A stretch of 64,000 nt of DNA, from positions 22,868,501-22,932,500 of the forward strand of contig NC_088787.1 in NCBI RefSeq assembly GCF_949628265.1, in the 5' to 3' direction. Source of the DNA: Cloeon dipterum (Eukaryota; Arthropoda; Insecta; Ephemeroptera; Baetidae). The position numbers and the translations under genes were made by a program. The notes under the pieces are model-generated. The model worked only from the letters and a program-made list of their open reading frames with translations. It was not told where the DNA came from and ran no database searches. Shown in pieces: positions 36,208-36,270 of this stretch. Numbering within the stretch: the first letter of the stretch is position 1; every line of letters begins with the position of its first letter.

Positions 36208-36270
36208 CCAAAGGCTATAGCTGATGAGGGTTTAATACCCGAAACGGCTGTCCTAGTCATGGGTGTTTGG
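36208..36270 (+). ncRNA. Type I hammerhead ribozyme motif (Penelope-like element type)
   Basis: The core CTGATGA (36221-36227) is followed by stem II GGGT/ACCC (36228-36231 with 36237-36240, 5-nt loop), GAAA (36241-36244), a minimal stem III (A36244-T36251, C36245-G36250, loop GGCT), then C17 at 36252, the predicted cleavage site. Stem I closes with TAG/CTA next to the core (36218-36220 with 36253-36255), an internal loop, and an outer CCAAA/TTTGG helix (36208-36212 with 36266-36270). All invariant core bases are present. Very short stem III and an open stem I are typical of hammerheads carried by Penelope-like retroelements and retrozymes. No reverse transcriptase is found nearby, so the element is a truncated or non-autonomous remnant. 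Confidence 0.75.

Follow-up and report, generated by a model that had tools for sequence, protein, structure and literature searches.

A hammerhead ribozyme in a probable relic of a non-coding retroelement of Cloeon dipterum, with an insertion structure like that of Penelope elements

The question raised by this locus is whether a short motif with the letters of a hammerhead ribozyme, at 36208-36270, is a true ribozyme structure and what carried it there. The locus lies in a stretch of 64,000 nucleotides of the Cloeon dipterum genome (assembly GCF_949628265.1, contig NC_088787.1, positions 22,868,501 to 22,932,500, forward strand), called the window below. The hammerhead was found to be real. 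The copy in the window is probably a relic of a non-coding hammerhead retroelement, and the insertion structure of its family makes movement by Penelope-type machinery likely.

The letters of the window were read against a description given in an earlier note on this DNA. CTGATGA, GAAA and the cytosine at the cleavage position were all present, as stated there, together with a stem II of 4 base pairs (bp) and a stem III of two pairs, A-U and C-G, closed by the loop GGCT (coordinates in Table 1). Stem I had been called partly paired. Beyond an internal loop it has an outer part of 5 bp (GCACC/GGTGT); the inner part, which forms 6 bp in sibling copies (GGCTAG/CTAGTC), reads GGCTATAG in the window and is broken by a 2-nucleotide insertion. 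The arrangement is that of a type I hammerhead, with CTGANGA, GAAA, an NUH cleavage site and three stems, open at stem I. The stem III stretch, ACGGCTGT at 36244-36251, is self-complementary with G-U pairs.

The motif had been placed in an otherwise empty region. Instead, it was found to sit within a transposed element bounded by target-site duplications. The window copy is identical to the unit of the sibling locus L013 at 277 of 293 aligned bases, and its flank repeat is among those that were significant in a shuffle test. Dispersed copies, target-site duplications and 5' truncations bear out the suggestion that the motif marks a retroelement. Because of the 2-nucleotide insertion in stem I, ribozyme activity of the window copy is doubtful; within the family, activity is plausible as a prediction from the letters.

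Table 1. Positions of the element, its hammerhead and related features in the window
Feature	Position	Strand	Remarks
Left target-site duplication	36114..36123	.	TCAAATATTG, 10 bp
Hammerhead retroelement copy, 5'-truncated	36124..36424	+	301 bp; unit positions about 304-609 of 610
Stem I, 5' side	36205..36220	+	outer GCACC 36205-36209, loop, inner GGCTATAG 36213-36220
Core CTGATGA	36221..36227	+	letters read
Stem II GGGT/ACCC, loop TTAAT	36228..36240	+	36228-36231 with 36237-36240; letters read
Core GAAA, stem III and cleavage site	36241..36252	+	GAAA 36241-36244, C 36245, loop GGCT, G 36250, T 36251, cleavage C 36252
Stem I, 3' side	36253..36266	+	inner CTAGTC 36253-36258, loop ATG, outer GGTGT 36262-36266
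Right target-site duplication	36425..36434	.	TCAAATATTG, 10 bp
Solo Penelope-like tail	36602..36675	-	74 bp; about 96% identical to L082; 11-bp duplications 36591-36601 and 36676-36686
Second hammerhead, in another and older repeat family	39262..39307	+	24.8 bits, E 5.6e-4

Copies were searched for in the same genome (190 Mb, 10 contigs; L-numbers denote loci). A 181-bp query gave 41 matches, the window copy included, and the 610-bp L013 unit at least 81 matching pieces, 40 of the 94 candidates having been scored; the copy number is at least in the dozens. At L013 and L014, on separate contigs, copies stand in tandem at 610-bp spacing, the only two loci with this arrangement among those fetched. 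The two differ at a single position over 1041 aligned bases, and the family was therefore active not long ago. The unit has 38% G+C and a longest sense frame of 53 amino acids. No reverse transcriptase or GIY-YIG frame was found in the unit, a Penelope protein matched it at E 1.1 at best, and the element is not classed as a Penelope-like element. Phage records gave no match to the element.

A chance or vestigial origin of the hammerhead in this repeat is regarded as extremely improbable. The pattern CTGATGA-N6-20-GAAAC-N1-20-GTC occurred twice in the window against 0.01 matches expected from 100 shuffles, in line with the low chance stated beforehand. The earlier note had also named a covariance-model search as a check and the lack of a hit as grounds for rejection. 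The window copy gave no hit, which to the letter goes against the motif: no Rfam hammerhead family reached E 10 at the locus, and a scan of the whole window with Rfam gave no family at its cut-off. The undamaged sibling L013, whose hammerhead differs visibly in lacking the 2-nucleotide insertion in stem I, did match RF00163, the type I hammerhead; over 261 bases the score was 25.6 bits and E 2.7e-4, with the cut-off at 34. Neither copy thus reached the cut-off of a curated model. A search of the genome with RF00163 gave no match; it gave none in control genomes either and is not informative.

Close copies also lend something to a chance origin, as no covariation was seen among them (alignment A1, 25 rows of the element family and 5 of an older relative): 91.9% of cells were paired, the same as in shuffles. 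The comparison between families gave a different result. The core pattern was found at 74 places in the genome with at most 3 mismatches, 20 of them exact, and reversed at 4. The same core stands with different stems in the older relative, in a second family that includes window 39262-39307 and in a third family, L096. At E 0.1 the unit matched neither the second family nor L096, and matched L075 within the hammerhead only. Compensatory stem changes were found between families, unrelated ones among them. In alignment A5 (12 selected rows), 7 of 12 pairs were changed on both sides and covariation was 0.497, a value that none of 500 shuffles attained (0.220 when shuffled; slid maximum 0.091); the number of pair types was reached by 53 of 500 shuffles. 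Rows keeping stem I had been chosen for A5, and L096 was shortened by one base after alignment A4 had been inspected. In A6 (30 less selected rows, with rows lacking stem I added, three rows from the window's family and L096 misaligned), covariation was 0.372 against 0.206 (0 of 500 as high; slid maximum 0.092), and doubly changed pairs were reached by 31 and pair types by 256 of 500 shuffles. L043, L076, L080, L083, L084, L086-L089, L091, L093 and L109 were left out of A6.

The hammerhead at 39262-39307 lay outside the training set of the model that found it, and the repeat around it is dispersed, 40 or more relatives being 70-87% identical. The majority letters of this second family (13 rows) give a stem I complete with 6 bp (GGTTTG/CAAACC) and a stem II of 4 bp (GGCT/AGCC). 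When seven copies from other families were compared with Rfam, L096 matched HH9 with 22.2 bits, under the cut-off of 52; the remaining six had no Rfam hammerhead at E 5, a point on the side of chance. The eight stem III letters are self-complementary in the unit, L075 and L097, and by reading in the second family (ATAGCTAT). A central mismatch is present in the older family, L092 and L096, and the self-complementarity is imperfect in L077, L078, L079, L093 and L099. The inner four letters would be self-complementary by chance in about 14% of cases. Apart from this, L075 and L076 were near-identical where read, and five same-strand copies of the core lie about 8-11 kb apart at G000:C2:10103732-10141894, like a repeated larger unit. 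The other pattern match in the window, at 6256-6296 (+), has by reading no stem II and a possible stem III, ACAGCTTCTGT; it is perhaps a decayed relative of L096.

Folding energies were calculated for single and paired hammerheads. In the window copy the hammerhead fold had -10.3 kcal/mol and the best other fold -24.5 kcal/mol. A double hammerhead joined through the stem III stretch had -45.9 kcal/mol, compared with -31.4 kcal/mol for two single ones. Stem III is self-complementary and dimers would therefore be favoured; together with the modelled energies this fits action as a dimer.

The way in which the copies were inserted was then read from their ends. In 20 of the 35 insertions that were tested, the two flanks carried a repeat of 10-18 letters, in some cases with one mismatch, that no more than 5 of 100 shuffles equalled. 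The test left out L037 and L043 and took L040 as two halves; L113-L120 were judged by eye only. Copies start at many different positions and nearly all are truncated. Clustering of 5' ends at the cleavage site was considered and rejected: three fall at 431-433 and a further one at 428, but elsewhere 476-480 also holds four. A hidden autonomous element behind the copies starting at 476-480 was rejected as well, four loci having no common upstream sequence. Among 44 element loci, 25 were single-ended, with L027 (plus, minus, plus) tallied here, and 19 were composites of opposite strands. The composites are arranged head to head with both tails outward, and flank repeats were found in 13 of the 17 tested, so that each such composite is one insertion. 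One end lay at 600-620 and the other at 670-690 in 13 of the 19, which is 13 of 13 where both ends were classified. Two equal ends were seen in none of the 19. The element shows tandem and head-to-head copies, a tail on one end and a target-site duplication, which are marks of Penelope-like elements. As a separate observation, at L015:2281-2339 an inverted Penelope tail piece lies just a few bases beyond an element copy, either a chimeric insertion or a coincidence.

Several of these marks would also be left on a SINE-like element (short interspersed element) moved by a LINE (long interspersed element) with L1-style 5' inversion. Truncation at the 5' end, duplications of 10-18 letters and inversions all occur with LINEs. 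L1 twin priming, on the other hand, inverts an upstream piece and not the 3' tail, and in the present element, like the Penelope family described below, a short tail forms one outer end and a long tail the other. No simple-repeat tail was observed, nor did boxes for RNA polymerase III turn up in a simple pattern search. Movement by a LINE is accordingly held to be very unlikely.

The genome contains a young Penelope-like family, with 7 loci at 99-100% amino-acid identity and frames of 437-829 amino acids among 25 matches. Its member L082 contains a reverse transcriptase domain and matches GIY-YIG below cut-off. A GIY-YIG search of the genome gave a single match, C5:7375594, in a frame that by eye resembles a cellular gene, with the Penelope endonuclease under the cut-off. 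At L082 an inverted tail piece stands ahead of the sense copy, there is a difference of 36 bases between the outer ends, and both flanks carry TTTCTCAAGAATG. A search with the Penelope tail gave at least 52 matches with 40 of 456 candidates scored. Thirty-six of these form 18 head-to-head pairs within 4 kb, and each of the 18 pairs has one long and one short end, for which the chance is about 4e-6 if ends are drawn evenly and independently. The other 16 matches, 12 long and 4 short, stand without a listed partner (L082 is included, its small inverted piece being unlisted), and among the matches listed no pair had the opposite arrangement. A tail sequence or tail hairpin shared with the element was looked for and given up: the sequence score was no better than in shuffles, and the first predicted folds gave no common picture. 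The solo tail at 36602-36675 is an extreme 5' truncation. Older remnants of Penelope tails with 75-88% identity lie at window 6482-6659 (+), 9146-9314 (-) and 9315-9387 (+). Window 9281 (-) reads TTGATGACGTCGAAACTGGTC, by eye a hammerhead with stem II lost, and the matching place in L082 is alike.

Truncation at the 5' end and target-site duplications are common to the element and this family, and in both the copies stand head to head with unequal outward tails, one of them short and the other long. The link to Penelope-type elements, which the earlier note had suggested along with retrozyme-type ones, is one of insertion structure, and not of shared sequence or shared protein. The protein of PAc, a Poseidon element of Anolis, cuts and extends both target strands and starts inside its RNA at two sites, and the tail is the stretch between these two internal start sites (PMC11167929). 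The unit could be looked on as the pseudo-long-terminal-repeat (pseudo-LTR) and tail of a Penelope-like element whose coding copies were lost or missed, the copies being truncated offspring of it and not a non-autonomous element in its own right. The order in PAc is matched by the hammerhead at unit position 431 and two start sites downstream (610/680), and nearly all copies are truncated. The 610-bp tandem spacing, however, leaves no room for a reading frame beyond the short one noted above, the protein match is likewise poor, and the L082 protein search found one family of long copies with short decayed pieces, though a distant family could be missed. This origin is considered unlikely.

The account that is preferred, and that we consider probable as a whole, combines a truncated relic, a multimeric or circular template, a double hammerhead and Penelope-type copying from two sites. 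The template would be a multimeric or circular RNA of the unit, as we infer from the two loci with more than one unit and from the many copies that cross the unit junction. Self-complementarity of stem III would let the hammerheads of neighbouring units pair, and the double hammerhead so formed would cut the RNA; by analogy, multimers may be processed by the ribozyme. A Penelope-type reverse transcriptase and endonuclease would open an AT-rich target, and copying would start at two internal RNA sites, near unit positions 610 and 680, with each target strand served by one of them. The resulting complementary DNAs would then meet head to head, or one alone would survive and give a single-ended copy such as that in the window. 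The resident Penelope family may itself be the mover; this stays conditional because a lost relative would leave identical marks. A narrower form, which is put forward tentatively, is that each insertion uses both start sites exactly once, one per strand, as would be expected of a protein dimer gripping a single RNA at two points. The element would then be a parasite with only two-site starting and the ribozyme in common with Penelope.

A number of results weigh against this account. Flank repeats were not found in 15 of the 35 insertions, the tandem loci L013 and L014 among them, and the cleavage site does not stand out among the 5' ends. One end was unclassified in the composites L025, L029, L032 and L040, and neither end was classified in L022 and L119, which fall outside the tail rule. 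No shared sequence stood out between L082 and the unit, with a tail score of 16.0 against 15.8 in shuffles. The L013 hammerhead fold had -15.7 kcal/mol against a minimum of -21.2 kcal/mol, and the minimum of the dimer, at -47.0 kcal/mol, was a non-hammerhead fold lying below the double hammerhead. In a rotifer, no cross-mobilisation was reported between two Penelope types (PMC3846280). Mutants of the PAc hammerhead were without effect on insertion in vitro, and the PAc start site was no different between strands (PMC11167929). The rule of one end of each kind is compatible with PAc because either strand can take either site; it is not predicted by PAc.

Penelope-like elements were named as a strong candidate mover in 2020, from their hammerheads, tandem copies and co-existence (PMC7229834/PMC7761336). 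The unusual insertion structure shared here is more direct evidence on the mover of animal hammerhead elements, and the rule of unequal ends, a short one with a long one, is a testable statement on how Penelope primes two target strands. If true, the two-site reading would explain the optional Penelope tail and name the mover of animal hammerhead elements. Neither the shared insertion structure nor the rule was found in open-licence literature; a one-sided tail as such is already known (PMC3846280).

Elsewhere in the window, a scan of ten frames recognised a GH15-domain protein, an SH2 protein and a ribonucleotide reductase small chain. An inverted repeat of about 197 bp with 88% identity (34272-34467 and 34558-34751) is a possible fold-back element.

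The element was compared with four known systems. With the metazoan non-LTR retrozymes it shares a non-coding tandem repeat, low G+C, a type I hammerhead and target-site duplications of more than 4 bp. Retrozyme monomers are about 150-450 bp whereas its unit is 610 bp, although circles up to more than 1000 nucleotides are given in the same work, and retrozymes form long arrays whereas its copies are mostly single or head-to-head and truncated (PMC7229834, PMC7761336). The retrozyme class is marked by abundant circular RNA, and the element is known here from genomic DNA alone. The two-pair stem III is as in Penelope elements and unlike that of metazoan retrozymes. The minimal hammerheads of Penelope-like elements and Terminons are alike in the type I core, the very short stem III and possible action as dimers; they lie within elements coding for reverse transcriptase whereas the unit encodes nothing, and the outer stem I beyond the internal loop is a feature of the element that they lack (PMC7229834, PMC7761336). 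PAc is alike in having a hammerhead upstream of two internal start sites, with insertions ending at either. Unlike the unit it codes for its own protein, and the two ends of one insertion are not paired in the accessible text (PMC11167929). The Penelope families of Adineta vaga are alike in their head-to-head pseudo-LTRs, a tail optional on one of them and short duplications, which are 8-10 bp there and 10-18 letters in the element. A foreign gene was moved in trans between pseudo-LTRs in A. vaga; that cargo kept the Penelope pseudo-LTRs, whereas the element and the resident Penelope have no sequence in common (PMC3846280). Among these systems, the element is intermediate between the metazoan retrozymes and the minimal Penelope hammerheads.
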